Shown piece after piece: positions 1 through 19,372 of a stretch of 64,000 nt of DNA. The DNA comes from Arcticibacter tournemirensis. Its GTDB lineage: Bacteria; Bacteroidota; Bacteroidia; Sphingobacteriales; Sphingobacteriaceae. Every line of letters starts with the position of its first letter. Position 1 is the stretch's first letter. The stretch covers positions 3,348,001 through 3,412,000 of the forward strand of contig NZ_VFPL01000001.1 of NCBI RefSeq assembly GCF_006716645.1, written 5' to 3'. The notes under the pieces are model-generated. The model had not been told where the DNA came from. It was given only the letters and a program-made list of their open reading frames with translations, and did no database searches. The translations under genes were made by a program, and so were the position numbers.

Positions 1-62
1 TTTAAATTACAAGGTTATACGCGCTATGCCTGGATTTGTTATATAATTTTAGTCTACATAAC

Positions 63-92
63 TTGTAGATTAAATATCTTTTACTATATTTG
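63..92 (+). promoter_or_regulatory. Bacteroidota promoter for the leader-peptide/redoxin transcript
   Basis: A TTG at 63-65 is followed after exactly 19 bases by TATATTTG at 85-92. This matches the Bacteroidota primary-sigma consensus (TTG, about 19 bases, TAnnTTTG). Transcription would start near 97-100, leaving a leader of about 170 nt before the ATG at 269, which contains the cysteine-rich short ORF at 141-185. Confidence 0.75.
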
Positions 93-140
93 TATTCAAT
101 GGAAATAAGGAACACATATAAGCATACCCGCTCACATCGA

Positions 141-185
141 ATGATGTGTTGTTCCCGAATGTGCAACGGCGCCTGCTGTTGTTAA
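141..185 (+). CDS. Cysteine-rich leader peptide (14 aa), candidate attenuator
   Basis: The short frame reads MMCCSRMCNGACCC then TAA: six cysteines in 14 residues, three of them consecutive just before the stop. It lies about 40 nt downstream of the predicted transcription start and 83 nt upstream of the next ATG, the usual place for an attenuation leader. Cysteine-codon upstream ORFs that sense cysteine supply are known in Actinobacteria; applying that idea here is inference. No clear terminator/antiterminator pair is visible between 186 and 268, so the mechanism could instead be Rho-dependent or translational. A chance ORF with this composition at this position seems unlikely. Confidence 0.6.
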   Translation: MMCCSRMCNGACCC

Positions 186-268
186 CATACTCCCATTCCC
201 TTTAATTCTTCGCATAACAATTTCACTGTAACGTAAATAATAATTTATAACATTTTAATACTAAGACT

Positions 269-874
269 ATGTTTTCACTTATCGCACAATCAGGCTCTTA
301 CCTAAATAGATTATACTCTGGAGAAACAGCAATCTCTGGCAGACAACCATCAGGAACGCCGCTCAGCGAAGGCGACTTCGCACCCGAGTTTACTTTTTCT
401 TCAAAGAACTGGCCAGGAGCATCCGTTCACGCAGATGTAACCTTAAAGGAGCTGCATCAGAAACCTCTGGTTGTAGCATTTTATTCAGTCTTCTGGAACG
501 GAACAGGCATCAGCTTGTTAAAACAACTACAAGCCGTTCAAACGAAGATCGGTGATGCTGCTAATGTGTTAATCGTTACATCAGAAGCACCCCGGCAGTT
601 TATTAGAGCCATTGAAAACCATGATTTGTCGTTCAGCTTTTACTATGATTCCGAAAAAGTCCTGGCAGAGAAGTTTGGCATCTTCTCGGAAGATAAACCG
701 ACATGGAACCTGTTCTCCGGGATCAACACAAACGTCCCCCTTCTTTCAGCTTATGTTATCAGCCCCTCCGGACAAATCAGCTTCAGCTACATTGAAGATT
801 TTTCTTCTCCTTTTCCTGAAGGCGATCTATTGGCGGCCGCTAACGCAGAAACTGAAATACAACAGCATAAATAA
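269..874 (+). CDS. Redoxin-like (AhpC/TSA fold) protein lacking all cysteines
   Basis: 201 residues with a peroxiredoxin/thioredoxin-like layout: a GDFAPEFTF opening near residue 35, a LVVAFYSVFWNG segment near 67-78 where active redoxins carry the peroxidatic or CxxC cysteine, and a sensor-like VLIVTSE strand near residue 98. The whole protein contains no cysteine, so it cannot be a thiol peroxidase or disulfide reductase by the usual chemistry. No signal peptide is evident. It is the first full gene after the cysteine-rich leader and is followed 128 bp later by a hydrolase on the same strand. The ATG at 269 is the first good start in frame. Its function is unknown; the fold assignment is moderately sure. 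Confidence 0.65.
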   Translation: MFSLIAQSGSYLNRLYSGETAISGRQPSGTPLSEGDFAPEFTFSSKNWPGASVHADVTLKELHQKPLVVAFYSVFWNGTGISLLKQLQAVQTKIGDAANVLIVTSEAPRQFIRAIENHDLSFSFYYDSEKVLAEKFGIFSEDKPTWNLFSGINTNVPLLSAYVISPSGQISFSYIEDFSSPFPEGDLLAAANAETEIQQHK

Positions 875-13351: not shown

Positions 13352-16300
13352 TTATAAAGTTAAATTGACACCGAGTGTGAATGTCTTTGCCCGGGGATAG
13401 GAGAAAAATGTAACATTCTGACCAAATCTATATCCCTCGCCCGACGTGATTTGAGAAGTACTTTCGGGATCGTAACCTTTAAAGTCTTTCGAAGTGATCA
13501 GCCAGGGGTTATTGGCACTAGCATAGACACGCAGTGCTGAAATCCCCATTCTTTTCGTCAGGCTGGGCTGAAAAGTATATCCCAATTGCAATACATTCAC
13601 GCGGAGATAGGAACCATCGACAATCCATTGAGAATCTACATTTGTATCCTGGCCGGCGTGACCGCTATTAGTCAGGTAAATAGCTTGCTGCATGGTATTA
13701 GGATTCGATCCGTTATATGCGTCAGTTAAAATCTCCTTTAAGCCATTGGTAATGCCAAAGCGATCGTAGGTAGAGTGAAAGAACTGCTGCATGGTCTCAA
13801 CGCCATAAACGAATTGCAGATCAAGGGTAAAATCAAAGTTCCCGTAATTCAGGGTATTGATGAAGCTTCCCGTCCAATCAGGAACGCCTTTACCCAAGAT
13901 TTCCTGCTTGGCTGAACGGTTAGGCCGACCGATTTTATCCATGGTGATATCACCACGTTCATAATCTTCAACCGTATATATTCCATTGCGTTTGTATCCA
14001 TAGAAGCTATTAAGGTTCTCTCCTACCCGAATGATACCATTAGGTCCGCCTACCCAGCCGAGCACTGTGATGTCTTCGTTATTCTCACCAAGTTTCAGAA
14101 CTTCGTTCTTATTAAAATTAGCATTCAGACTGGTATTCCAGGTGAAGTTGGTTGACTTTACCGGACTGGCAGTGATCATTAAGTCGACACCCTGATTCCT
14201 TACAGAACCTATGTTCCTCATTACTGAAGAAAAACCGGTAGTATTCGGTAGCGGTGCATCCAGCAATAAGTCTGTGGTTTTACGGTTATAATAAGACACG
14301 TCGAAGTTCAGACGGCTATCAAATAAACCTAACTCCACACCAACATCATAGGTGGCGGTCCTCTCCCACTTTAAATCATCATTCGGCATAGTACCGATGT
14401 ACGAATACGGAGCTCGTGAGCCGTTCAACAAATATGTCCCAGAAGTAACGTTAGCTAATTTTTTATAGGGATCGATTTCCGAGTTGCCAGTAATCCCATA
14501 ACTGGTATGTAGCTTCAGGTTGCTAATAATAGTGTTATTCTTTAAGAAATCTTCATTGGATACGTTCCAGGCAAGTCCCACAGAAGGAAAGAATGCATAT
14601 TCATTGTTAGCACCAAACTTTGACGAACCATCATAGCGGCCGGTTACCGTAGCCGAATACCGGTCGTTATAAGTGTAGGCCGCGCGGAGGAAATACGAAT
14701 TCATTCCCCACCTGTTATAGCTTGAATACGGCGAGGAAGGTGTACTTCCCACTCCCATATTGTACCACTCGAAGAAATCATTACTAAAGCCCTCAGTTCT
14801 GCCCCCATCATAGTTATAAGTACGTTCCTGCCATGACAAACCCGCCATTGTGTTTATGCGATGTTTATCAAAGGTTTTGTTATACGTAAGATATGTTTCC
14901 TCCTGCCAGTATAATACATCCGTATGGTTGATTTCCGCCCATCCATTTGGCATAGATATATTATTTAGGGTAATGGAAGAATATCCTTTATAGGCCTTTT
15001 TATGATTATCAACACCAAATTGTGTTTTCAGGTCGAGGCCATCTGCTAAATGGAATGTTAACGCTGCATTTCCGAAGATTTGTGTATTATAACGCATGCG
15101 TTTCTGCAGGTCCAGAATAGCAGCAGGATTGGACATCCCCTCAAAACCTAAAACGTTAGAAACAGTTGAAGATGCGGACGAGGTATATTTCCCATCAGGT
15201 TGGCGAAGTGGCAACCACGGCAGCATTTCAATCATGGTACGCCTGGCATCCTGACCTCCTCCATCTTCCGGAGTATAGCGACCCCAGGTGTGATTAGCCG
15301 TCAGGTTCACACTAGCTGACAACCAATCTTTTACCTTGGTGTCATAAGCGAGCTTACCGTTGATCCTTTTATTGTTGGTATTTAATACAATTCCTTGCTG
15401 ATCTGAGTAATTAAGAAATGTACCCATTGACGAGTTTTCATCACCTTGCTGAATATTCAACTGGTGGTTTTGAGAAGTAGCCGTTCTTGTAGCCTCCTTT
15501 TGCCAGTTAGTATTATATAGAGGATTACCATTGGAATCGAAGTAATTGGGATCATTGAACCATGTCTTTTTATCCAGCGACCAATTCTTGCCCTGCCACT
15601 TATTTTCGTTTTCCAAACCGATCATGAAGGCGTCGACCCACTCCTGCCCGCTAAGCACGTCCATATAATGCTGCGCGGAGCTAGAACCGAGAGAGCCTTG
15701 GTAGCTGATGGTCCGGCGCCCATCCTTATTGCCTCTTTTTGTTGTTACAAGAATCACCCCATTAGCACCACGGGCCCCATAAATTGCTGCAGACGAGGCG
15801 TCTTTAAGTACTTCAATCCGCTCAATATCGTTGGGATTTAATAAATGGAAATCTTCCATTACAACGCCATCAACCACATAGAGCGGATTTGATGAAGAGT
15901 TAATGGTGGCTGTACCACGGATGATAACGCGGTTGGCATACGCACCTGGCTGACTAGAGTTGGAGAAAATGTTAACACCGGCAGCCTTGCCTCTGAGGTT
16001 ATCCAGGGGACTAAAGTTCTGTGCTTTAACCATATCGGAACCCTTGGCAATGGCAATAGATCCAGTGACGTCCGATTTCCGCATGGTACCATATCCCACC
16101 ACAACAACTTCTTCTAATTTGGTATTCGATTTATCCATTCTGATCTCAATCGTATTTCTTCCATTTAAAGGAACCCGCTGACTTTCATATCCGATATAGG
16201 AAACTATCAGAACAGCATTCAGGTTAGGAACTTCGATTGAAAAGGCCCCGTTTACATCGGTACTGGTTCCTTTACCATTTGCTACCCCAAGTGTTACTCC

Positions 16301-16505
16301 AGGCAGCGTTTCGCCGGTTGAGGCGTCCTTGACCGTCCCCGTTACCTTTTGCACCTGTGGAGAAGCTGCGGGTTTATCTGCTTTTACCTCTACCTTTTTT
16401 GTTATAAAAATGATGTTGTTTTGAACTTTGTACTGAAGCGGCTGTCCTTCGAAACAGAGATCCAGTACTTTCATAATATCCAGATTTTTAGCCTGAACAG
16501 TAATT
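13352..16505 (-). pseudogene. susC (TonB-dependent receptor), 3' part, cut off by IS21-type element
   Basis: Encodes the rest of the STN domain (VQAKNLDIMKVLDLCF...), a carboxypeptidase-like regulatory domain (VTGTVKDASTGETLPGV), the plug with EVVVVGYG and the ERIEVLKDASSAAIYG signature, and a full beta-barrel of some 800 residues ending in LGVNLTL. Signal peptide and first half of STN lie beyond the insertion at 19119-19372. Joining both parts with one copy of the duplicated AATTAC gives 3,402 nt, an unbroken frame of 1,133 codons plus stop, so the insertion is the only lesion seen. Translation from the internal ATG at 16474 would lack an export signal. Confidence 0.93.
16500..16505. repeat. 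Target-site duplication, left copy
   Basis: GTAATT directly outside the left end of the IS21-type element; repeated at 19119-19124 directly outside its right end. Confidence 0.85.
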
Positions 16506-16513
16506 TGGAGATT

Positions 16514-16550
16514 CCGGAGATGCTGACCCCGTACCGGGCATACTGACCCC
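16514..16550. repeat. Left-end terminal repeats of the IS (two copies)
   Basis: CCGGAGATGCTGACCCC (16514-16530) and CCGGGCATACTGACCCC (16534-16550) are direct repeats spaced by 20 bp and inverted relative to the right-end copies. Multiple terminal repeats are a known trait of IS21 elements and are bound by the transposase. Confidence 0.8.
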
Positions 16551-16592
16551 CTAATTTGGCTTTGGCCCTTAGATTCTGAAGGCCTGACAATT

Positions 16593-17309
16593 TTACCTTT
16601 TTTTTCTTAGACTTTCACCTTTAAGTTCAATTCGGTAAGCGGTATGTACCAACCGGTCGAGTATGGCATCAGCAATCGTCTCTTCACCGATCACATCATA
16701 CCAGCTTGCCACCGGCAGCTGGCTGGCGATGATAGTAGATTTGCGACTGTGCCTGTCTTCTATGATTTCCATCAGGTCCATTCGTTGCTGCTGTTCCAGG
16801 TGAGTGAGTCCGAAGTCGTCCAGAATAAGCAGTTCCGTGCGTGAAAGCTTTTCCATAAACTTATAGATACTTCCGTCAATGCGGCTCATCTTCGTGCGCA
16901 GCAGTAACTTCTGCAGGTTATAATAAGCCACTTTATATCCCTGTGCACAAGCCTGGTGCCCCAGGGCAGAAGCCAGAAAGCTTTTACCGGCACCTGAGGC
17001 CCCGCTGATCAGAACGGCATCTCCACTGGAGAGATAAGTTCCCATGGCAAGGTCCGTAATCAGTGAACGGTCAATCCCCCTGGAGGCATCCATGTTCAGT
17101 TCTTCCACAGAAGCCCGGTAGCGGAAGCCAGCATTTTTAAGCAGACGGTCAAAGCGTTTTCCGCTGCGCTGTTCCTGCTCGGCCTGCAGCAGCAGTTGAA
17201 GGCCCTCTGAGAGGTTCAGTTCGTGATGGCGGCGGGTTTCCATCAGTACCTGCCAGCTGCGGCACATTCCATGCAGGCGCAGCTCTTTGAGTTGTGTTTC
17301 GATTTGCAT
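16593..17309 (-). CDS. istB: IS21-family ATPase helper IstB
   Basis: 238 residues, an AAA+ ATPase related to DnaC/DnaA that loads and stimulates the IstA transposase and selects targets. Walker A is GASGAGKSF near residue 102, Walker B LLILDDFG near 165, and the typical IstB arginine region RLVHTAYRIELKGESLR is near the C-terminus. The start at 17309 (MQIETQLKELRLHGM) is 1 base after the istA stop; a longer frame to 17384 overlaps istA and is not the likely start. Confidence 0.93.
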   Translation of the reverse strand: MQIETQLKELRLHGMCRSWQVLMETRRHHELNLSEGLQLLLQAEQEQRSGKRFDRLLKNAGFRYRASVEELNMDASRGIDRSLITDLAMGTYLSSGDAVLISGASGAGKSFLASALGHQACAQGYKVAYYNLQKLLLRTKMSRIDGSIYKFMEKLSRTELLILDDFGLTHLEQQQRMDLMEIIEDRHSRKSTIIASQLPVASWYDVIGEETIADAILDRLVHTAYRIELKGESLRKKR

Positions 17310-17310
17310 A

Positions 17311-18867
17311 TTAAAAGTGAATAGTGGATTGTATATAGTATTCTTTTCCTCTGATATTGTTATGGGCAGGAAGCGGCTGTTCAATGGCCTCCTCCTGCAG
17401 GTAGAGCGTCATATTGTTTTCCAGTATTTTCTGGATGGCCTTATAGGAGCAAATGCGGTGCTGCAGGGCAATACGGCAAACACGGGCGAACTTTTCAGGA
17501 TCGGTGTTCCGGTATAAACGAAACAGGCCATCACAGGTACGGTACAACTGCTCGGGATACCGGTCCTGCTGAAAAATGATCTCAAGGAGGCGGTAGAGGT
17601 CTTCCGACTTATAACGGGCCCGCTCCAGATAATATTCCGGACTGCGGTTCAGCCAGGCCTGATTAGCCGAACTCAGGTGTTCCTTTACCGAAGTATATCC
17701 CCCGCTGTAGCTTCTGATATGGACAGCCACCTGTTTCCCTTCAGCATAGATAGAGACCATACTGCGGGTATAGATCACCTTTACTTTGGAACCGATCAGG
17801 GCATAGGGCACACTGTAAAAGTGCTTCTGAACACTGACATGTCCGTTGCTGGCGATCTTGGGCTCACAATAGTGTTTCAGTTCAAAGTCCTGCCGGGGGA
17901 GCTCAGATAGTAACGGCTTTTCAGCGGCCAGGAAGCGTTCTTCCCTGCAGTAGTCCTTCCGCTGCATGCGGGTCTGGTTATGTTCCCGCACTTTTTCCCT
18001 GATGGCCTGATTTAGAGAAGCCAGATCGAAGAACTGCCGGTTGCGCAGCCGGGCATACACTCTGGTATAGAGCAGCTTTACCTGGTTCTCAACCAGACTT
18101 TTATCGCGGGGACGGCCCGGTCTTGCAGGCACGACCGACATCTGATAATGATTGGCAAAGTCTTCCAGGCTCTGGTTGACCTCCGGCTCATACCGGTTTG
18201 CCTTGACGATAGCAGACTTAAGGTTGTCGGGTACCAGTACCCGGGGCACCCCGCCCAATTCCTTCAGGCAGCAGGAAAGGGCATACAGAAAGTCGCCGAT
18301 TCGCTGAGAGGGTACAGCCATAGCAAAGGCATAATCAGAAAAAGGAAGGCAGGCTACAAACAACTGGCAACTGATGATCTCCCCGGTCTGGCGGTCTGTA
18401 TAACTGATCTGTTTGCCGGCGAAGTCGACAAACAGCTTATCGGCAGGTTCATGGCTTAATACAGATGTGGGTTTACGGGCAACAAGCTGCTGATGAAGAT
18501 GAAAGCAGAACTGAGAGTAGGCGTACCCCTGGGGAAAGCCCCGGATATATTCATCCCACAACAGCTTTCTGGTAACCCCCGTTTTTTTAAGCTCTTTGGA
18601 GAGATGTTCCAGCTTTCCTTTAAAATGAATATAACGGGGATCTTTGTAAGCAGGGTTACCGGAATGGAAACGGGTTTCCAGAACAGGATCCTCCAACTGA
18701 AGCAGTTCCTGCGGGTCCAGGGCAGCAGACTGAAGCTTGGCAAGGTAAGACTTCACCGTGTTCTTGCTGATGTTCAGCGTTCGTGCGATGGCCTTAATCG
18801 AATAGCCCTGGGTGTGTAAGCGTAATAGTTGTTTTATCTGACTCATGGGTCTTGGTTTTCCGGCCAT
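17311..18867 (-). CDS. istA: IS21-family transposase IstA
   Basis: 518 residues. An N-terminal helix-turn-helix (YSIKAIARTLNISKNTVKSY, about residues 17-36) recognises the terminal repeats. The DDE/RNase H-like core shows LFVDFAGKQI (first Asp), LVPDNLKSAIVK (second Asp) and KSLVENQVK (Glu), followed by the Mu-transposase C-terminal beta region. The length matches intact family members. It is transcribed with istB, which starts just after its stop. Confidence 0.94.
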   Translation of the reverse strand: MAGKPRPMSQIKQLLRLHTQGYSIKAIARTLNISKNTVKSYLAKLQSAALDPQELLQLEDPVLETRFHSGNPAYKDPRYIHFKGKLEHLSKELKKTGVTRKLLWDEYIRGFPQGYAYSQFCFHLHQQLVARKPTSVLSHEPADKLFVDFAGKQISYTDRQTGEIISCQLFVACLPFSDYAFAMAVPSQRIGDFLYALSCCLKELGGVPRVLVPDNLKSAIVKANRYEPEVNQSLEDFANHYQMSVVPARPGRPRDKSLVENQVKLLYTRVYARLRNRQFFDLASLNQAIREKVREHNQTRMQRKDYCREERFLAAEKPLLSELPRQDFELKHYCEPKIASNGHVSVQKHFYSVPYALIGSKVKVIYTRSMVSIYAEGKQVAVHIRSYSGGYTSVKEHLSSANQAWLNRSPEYYLERARYKSEDLYRLLEIIFQQDRYPEQLYRTCDGLFRLYRNTDPEKFARVCRIALQHRICSYKAIQKILENNMTLYLQEEAIEQPLPAHNNIRGKEYYIQSTIHF

Positions 18868-18925
18868 CAGCGATCTTCTTTTTTAATAAATTGGATCACT
18901 AAGTATAACCAAAACCAAAGTTAGA

Positions 18926-19110
18926 GGGGTCAATATGCTCCGGTAAAGCCTTCCCTTTAATCATATCAAGGGGGTCAACATGCTCCGGTACGCATTGCGC
19001 CTATCTCCTAGAGGGGGTCAGCATCCGCCGGAATGGCAGGCGATTCTGTTGAATTAAGCCGCATTCCTATGCGCTATTCTAACCGCTTTTGAGGGGTCAA
19101 CATGCTCCGG
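18926..19110. repeat. Right-end terminal repeats of the IS (four copies)
   Basis: Four copies of an 18-bp motif, GGGGTCAACATGCTCCGG in two cases, at 18926-18943, 18971-18988, 19014-19031 (most diverged) and 19093-19110. They are inverted relative to the two left-end copies, giving a 2:4 asymmetric arrangement. Confidence 0.85.
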
Positions 19111-19118
19111 AATATCCA

Positions 19119-19124
19119 GTAATT
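19119..19124. repeat. Target-site duplication, right copy
   Basis: GTAATT directly outside the right end of the element, identical to 16500-16505. Confidence 0.85.
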
Positions 19125-19372
19125 GGTTTAGCTTCCTTTAATGTTACATTGTTATACAAAAAGTCAAACTTTGTTTGCTTCTTTATTTGTGCGATCACCT
19201 CTGATATAGGGGCATTCGTAACCGTTAAAGATATTTTTTGCGCAAAACCTTCCGCCCTTATCTGAGAAAAGGCGGTAACAAGCAAAATAAAGGTCAATTT
19301 CATTATTAGAAAAAGATTTGAACGCGCACAGGAACCTCTCCTGAAAGGGAGTTCAGTAAATTTTTTATACAT
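19119..19372 (-). pseudogene. susC 5' part: signal peptide and start of STN domain
   Basis: Begins at the ATG at 19372 with a basic N-region, then a signal peptide (MKLTFILLVTAFSQIRAEGFAQ; a second ATG marks its usual start) and the first half of the secretin/TonB N-terminal domain (ISLTVTNAPISEVIAQIKKQ ... LKEAKPIT). The natural frame stops being susC at PIT, where the insertion element begins; translation runs a few codons into the element and stops. The STN domain receives the FecR signal in regulated SusC receptors, which fits the sigma/anti-sigma genes upstream. Confidence 0.9.

Follow-up and report, generated by a model that had tools for sequence, protein, structure and literature searches.

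The gene of a redoxin-fold protein that contains no cysteine is preceded in Arcticibacter tournemirensis by a short reading frame that closes with several consecutive cysteine codons, and we interpret this arrangement as a cysteine-supply sensor within a sulfur-starvation regulon. The window, that is, the whole stretch of DNA analyzed, comprises 64,000 nt (GCF_006716645.1, NZ_VFPL01000001.1, positions 3,348,001 to 3,412,000 of the forward strand), and unlabelled coordinates below refer to it. The interpretation has three steps: an operator for a sulfur-responsive regulator, a leader peptide read by the ribosome, and a product nearly free of cysteine and methionine. With the Rho detail of the output left aside, we assign it a probability of about 0.78, in the absence of expression data. 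Within it, membership of the redoxin gene in a sulfur-starvation regulon is held with high confidence, as is, to the same degree and again without expression data, the response of the leader to cysteine supply, in which both leader translation and the response itself are inferred.

Bacteroidota promoters follow the consensus TTTG-N19-TAnnTTTG, a type that lies outside the coverage of a generic sigma-70 scan. On the forward strand at 63-92, a TTG (63-65), a spacer of 19 nt and TATATTTG (85-92) fit this type; the initial annotation had proposed a promoter here, and sequence comparison places the same element in Pararcticibacter amylolyticus. The distance from the -7 element to the redoxin ATG measures 176 nt (93-268), in agreement with the earlier estimate of about 170 nt. 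An inverted repeat, TCTAC-N7-GTAGA, occupies positions 53-69 (+) and is a candidate operator of a sulfur regulon, on the basis of the pattern counts given below. An Rfam scan of the window yielded no match, and no SAM riboswitch aptamer (RF00162) at or over the gathering score was present in it.

The leader frame starts at the ATG at position 99, 6 nt past the -7 element, and extends over 28 codons on the forward strand to position 185, encoding MEIRNTYKHTRSHRMMCCSRMCNGACCC followed by a stop. Its cysteine codons lie at 147-152, 162-164 and 174-182, and the Cys-rich end, MMCCSRMCNGACCC, contains six cysteines and closes with CCC-TAA at 174-185. Two inner ATGs of the same frame, at 141 and 144, account for the 14-residue form originally described. 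Since the frame is open from the ATG at 99 and has equal length in the sister species, this form is probably just its end, and a leader peptide of 28 rather than 14 residues appears more likely; the six cysteines and the terminal triplet of the original description are retained, while its length is corrected. Dinucleotide shuffles of 93-268 produced a short ORF with six cysteines in 0 of 5,000 cases and a CCC-stop ending in 0 of 5,000. No NCBIfam model matches any of the leaders tested. In the second step of the proposed mechanism, a ribosome is inferred to begin translating these 28 codons close to the 5' terminus of the mRNA.

Scanning 84,980 species genomes with an alignment of the redoxin family returned 41 loci, nearly all from Mucilaginibacter; the leader tally (n = 41) includes the window and excludes one locus without a gene start. 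A poly-Cys short ORF, usually of 27-30 codons, lies upstream of the redoxin gene at 34 of these loci, and most of the leaders end in CCC or CCCC. When 60 related genomes were searched for the leader signature, the pattern appeared only in the window genome and in the sister species P. amylolyticus, of the same genus, whose leader (MNKAKTYSFPSTHQTMCCSRMCSNFCCC) likewise has 28 codons, begins 5 nt past the promoter and precedes a redoxin 55% identical to that of the window. Six of the 41 loci are leaderless and have 5' regions of only 19-34 nt; they constitute one supported clade, which indicates that the leader state changed rarely. The redoxin locus of Pedobacter sp. BS3 carries only a weak version of the leader, MYGLYRC. 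The bacterial family that carries these leaders belongs to the soil Bacteroidota.

Codon changes were counted pairwise within groups of close leaders, so that the events are not independent. Codons encoding cysteine in either member were identical in 183 cases, synonymous in 36 and non-synonymous in 27 (N/S 0.75), as against 236 synonymous and 621 non-synonymous changes at the other leader codons (N/S 2.6). Conservation and codon constraint, which the initial annotation had left to be checked, are thus both found, and the direction is clear: the Cys run is maintained at the level of the protein sequence. Were the ORF to encode a small Cys-rich protein with a function of its own, such as a metallothionein-like peptide, and to have no regulatory role, the run would likewise be conserved at the protein level. 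We consider this very unlikely, because the remainder of the peptide is poorly conserved and is wholly different among the leaders of redoxin, TonB and metY genes, and because the ORF is always located within the 5' region of another gene. Many Mucilaginibacter redoxin loci (e.g. L023, L047 and L050) contain a second tandem uORF ending in YGLC(R/S)C(C), situated between the first leader and the redoxin gene, with a conserved stretch, TTTACTGACCTCATTATTTAA, ahead of it; the motif YGLC(R/S)CC was absent from the 60 relatives searched, one unrelated match excepted.

The window genome contains 51 matches to TGYTGYTGYTRA, only two of which are leader-like, namely that of the window and one near 3335.5 kb (G000:C1). 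Outside the window, a 40-codon ORF ending in ICCCCC is followed by 113 nt and then by metY, the gene of O-acetylhomoserine sulfhydrylase (locus L194, 536-956), and this leader itself follows a SAM riboswitch (RF00162, 60.4 bits). In the family, about 24 of 30 metY loci contain a uORF with a Cys-rich tail, which includes CCC in 18 of them; the SAM riboswitch was found in 17 of the 20 metY loci scanned, and the remaining three are also without a convincing leader. Before metY, a SAM riboswitch and a poly-Cys uORF place two sulfur sensors in tandem on a single mRNA, an arrangement common in Sphingobacteriaceae. The gene of a textbook enzyme of sulfur assimilation thus has the same device ahead of it, in this genome and in related ones, and because a similar leader stands before such a gene in the same genome, the poly-Cys leader is very probably a sensor of cysteine shortage.

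The downstream gene (269-874, +) encodes a redoxin-fold protein of 201 aa from the AhpC/TSA family (PF00578, E 7.9e-11, 42.4 bits against a cut-off of 26), which, as had been claimed, contains no cysteine and, in addition, no methionine beyond the start residue. Its AlphaFold2 model (mean pLDDT 73.5) matches PrxQ and AhpE in Foldseek (E 2e-9). The active-site motif WCPYC is replaced by WNGTG: where the redoxin family has FYSVFWNGTG, a relative from the same genome has FYRGSWCPYC, and the replacement excludes thiol peroxidase chemistry for the family. The peroxidatic cysteine is absent from the window redoxin, and 37 of the 41 family members are Cys-free or nearly so. Of the 8,555 residues that make up the 41 proteins, only 4 are Cys and 11 are internal Met (0.18%), whereas sulfur residues account for 2.8% across 308 other ORFs at these loci; no sulfur residue occurs past the start in 33 of the 41, versus 0 of 93 size-matched background proteins. 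Each of six CxxC relatives contains 2-3 Cys and 2-12 Met. Sulfur poverty extends to the leaderless clade and is therefore independent of the leader, and the existence of six leaderless loci with a sulfur-poor protein implies that the redoxin gene can do without a leader. In the third step of the mechanism, a product that, like its family, is almost without Cys and Met in sequence could be produced when sulfur is short. A thiol-less redoxin made under sulfur limitation is accordingly the best-supported inference for this gene; its expression under limitation has not been shown, and the role of the protein is unknown. The sulfur role of the regulated gene is clear for metY, whereas that of the redoxin is inferred only from the box and the sulfur-free sequence.

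The box was searched together with the promoter as TCTAY-N7-GTAGATT-N3..14-TAnnTTTG, the promoter being added because TCTAY-N6-TGTAGATTA by itself, a shorter box, also matches coding sequence (L092). The combined pattern gave 98 matches across 300 genomes of the order, and its reversed control gave 0. Behind the boxes are PLP enzymes of Cys/Met metabolism, a PLP enzyme with a CBS domain, a sulfatase, TauE permeases, the NIL-domain ATPase of a methionine importer, SAM riboswitches and TonB/SusC receptors, together with an inositol-phosphatase-family protein, CysQ-looking, that adjoins a permease. From the box we infer the first step of the mechanism, in which a transcription factor responsive to sulfur would act at TCTAC-N7-GTAGA. 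A CymR-like Rrf2 protein is encoded directly after a siroheme-synthase-like gene in the window genome (L292, G000:C2:145630), and a relative of it adjoins a boxed receptor in L106; that this protein is the regulator binding the sulfur box is a guess, and it is offered only as a candidate.

A CCC-tailed short ORF lies within 350 nt of the box at 19 of 91 distinct boxed loci, against 0.27 in shuffles. A functionless Cys-rich frame arisen by chance, which might be suspected given that most of the 51 strings counted above look like chance, is opposed by this excess, by the absence of comparable frames from the shuffled leader and by the conservation and synonymous change described above; leader conservation refutes it, and we reject it. 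Boxed TonB receptors have a median of 0.43% sulfur residues versus 1.09% in 29 other receptors (p 4e-4). This contrast is approximate, as the control proteins are mostly incomplete at the locus end, and the controls include L278, with a SAM-riboswitch-like leader, and the sulfur-free L263. Over its 720 visible residues, the latter is free of Cys and internal Met, and it has neither a box nor a poly-Cys leader upstream, which remains unexplained. Very Cys/Met-poor boxed TonB/SusC receptors are found in L242, L256, L246 and L260, the 872-aa receptor of L242 being without Cys or Met past the start.

The shared box, the metY leader in the same genome and the lack of methionine as well as cysteine in the redoxin family support the earlier proposal that the gene is made when cysteine is scarce, the response to cysteine supply being inferred; for its alternative, that the cysteine is oxidized, no support was found. 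A related possibility is that the Cys-rich nascent peptide senses thiol redox state or metals, binding copper or zinc or becoming oxidized and thereby changing ribosome stalling, given that poly-Cys peptides can bind metals and that the product has a redoxin fold. Yet this product lacks a thiol, leaders of the same kind are found before metY, downstream of SAM riboswitches, and before genes with the sulfur box, and no metal-handling gene was recognized among the boxed genes, which leaves redox or metal sensing unlikely, though not excluded.

How a cysteine-sensing leader would control the redoxin gene is less certain. Attenuation at an intrinsic terminator was rejected, because none lies between leader and redoxin gene; a search for a hairpin followed by a T-run found none in the window and one weak match across all redoxin leaders. 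The spacer from the leader stop to the redoxin start (186-268, +) is C-rich and G-poor and constitutes a candidate Rho-loading (rut) region. In the 60 nt past the leader stop, C exceeds G in 43 of 46 leaders, including all 29 redoxin loci counted, a bias significant relative to 196 other 5' regions (p 2e-15) and to boxed genes without a leader (p 8e-10); it is weaker in the non-redoxin leaders (14 of 17). The position of the Cys run at the extreme end of the ORF, next to a C-rich post-stop stretch, fits a starved ribosome that shields a Rho-loading region. With ample cysteinyl-tRNA, the ribosome is inferred to reach the stop and depart, exposing the C-rich, G-poor stretch, on which Rho would load and terminate transcription ahead of the redoxin gene; with little cysteinyl-tRNA, the ribosome would stall at the terminal Cys codons and cover this stretch, allowing the redoxin to be expressed. 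The spacer favors Rho-dependent attenuation only suggestively, as there is no conserved motif and Rho dependence is inferred, and we hold this output, rather than another, at just short of even odds.

Cysteine sensing might also have a translational or structural output, in which the stalled ribosome alters mRNA folding, re-initiation or stability without Rho. Two stable hairpins occur in the Pararcticibacter leaders, both of which have a hairpin over the Cys run, many Mucilaginibacter loci carry the second tandem uORF, ending in YGLCRCC, and translation attenuation has been cited for mycobacterial cysteine genes (PMC13236596). However, the folds show no conserved pairing with the redoxin start, leader and gene lie anywhere from about 57 to 242 nt apart, and the post-stop C-rich bias is left unexplained. 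Owing to the hairpins and the tandem leader, such a mechanism is not excluded, and we regard it as a live possibility at somewhat less than even odds, leaving the question open.

Downstream of the redoxin gene, an alpha/beta hydrolase (1003-1770, +; PF00561, E 2.9e-24), which is not sulfur-free, is possibly co-transcribed with it; such a hydrolase also adjoins the redoxin homologue in P. amylolyticus (L004) and Pedobacter sp. BS3 (L006). In P. amylolyticus, a TauE-like permease is divergent from the redoxin gene (L004, 2-1243, -). Similar sterol-desaturase-like genes occur near the Pedobacter redoxin gene (L006, 2-439, -) and behind one box (L136), and a link to lipids drawn from these neighbors is speculation. 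Elsewhere in the window (13352-19372, -), an IS21-type element with istA-like (17311-18867) and istB-like (16593-17384) genes separates the N-terminal part (19097-19372) of a SusC/TonB receptor gene from its remainder (13352-16474), so that this receptor gene looks interrupted; a FecR-like gene adjoins it.

Cysteine leader peptides in Actinobacteria are reportedly the subject of work by Canestrari et al. in 2020 (Mol Microbiol 114:93). Such leaders were described for actinobacterial cys and cbs operons, where shielding of a Rho-loading site by the ribosome was proposed, not shown (Seliverstov et al. 2005, PMC1262725). The leaders reported here share with them a short ORF whose Cys codons are clustered next to its stop, a position before sulfur genes (here most clearly metY), the lack of an intrinsic terminator with Rho-dependent termination proposed instead, and a leaderless or nearly leaderless start (PMC1262725). 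They differ in belonging to another phylum, with no sequence homology claimed, in having a Bacteroidota promoter with a TCTAY-N7-GTAGA box, and in the genes that they precede, namely those of a redoxin devoid of sulfur and of TonB receptors, and metY where it follows a SAM riboswitch. The uORFC-8-2 motif before cysS in Rhodobacterales is likewise a uORF with tandem Cys codons, thought to read cysteinyl-tRNA (PMC8632094). That motif ends in an intrinsic terminator, whereas none is found here. In E. coli tnaC, attenuation is Rho-dependent and free tryptophan is sensed via the nascent peptide. The proposed logic of a ribosome held at the leader end and shielding an adjacent Rho-loading region is similar, whereas codon starvation is proposed here; no sequence comparison was made with tnaC.

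The redoxin family shares its fold and Pfam family with AhpE, PrxQ and the WCPYC-bearing AhpC/TSA-like proteins of the same genomes, but is without the peroxidatic Cys and has nearly no Cys and almost no Met. Sulfur-sparing proteins such as the cyanobacterial low-sulfur phycocyanin are poor in Cys and Met and are made under sulfur limitation. The redoxin resembles them in composition, whereas here a whole family is affected and a sensor leader is present, with expression under limitation still to be shown. We found no earlier description of a cysteine leader in Bacteroidota, in a literature search that lacks most subscription journals; papers on Flavobacterium psychrophilum (PMC9723704) and Bacteroides thetaiotaomicron (PMC7366714) treat leader-peptide attenuation in general and no cysteine leaders. 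New here are, besides the phylum, the combination with either a SAM riboswitch or the TCTAY box and, most importantly, a product free of sulfur.

Taken together, it is reasonably probable that Sphingobacteriaceae possess a dedicated sulfur-starvation regulon of three layers, in which a sulfur operator or SAM riboswitch is combined with poly-Cys leaders that read cysteinyl-tRNA and with outputs purged of Cys and Met, namely the thiol-less redoxin-fold protein and TonB receptors. If so, sulfur sparing at the protein level would be encoded in the genes themselves and coupled to a sensor of its own, and the sulfur-free redoxin makes it testable via one gene. The SAM riboswitch and cysteine leader before metY would read two sulfur metabolites on one mRNA, and a Cys run ending a short ORF would become a readable marker of genes for sulfur starvation in the phylum, including TonB receptors of unknown substrate.
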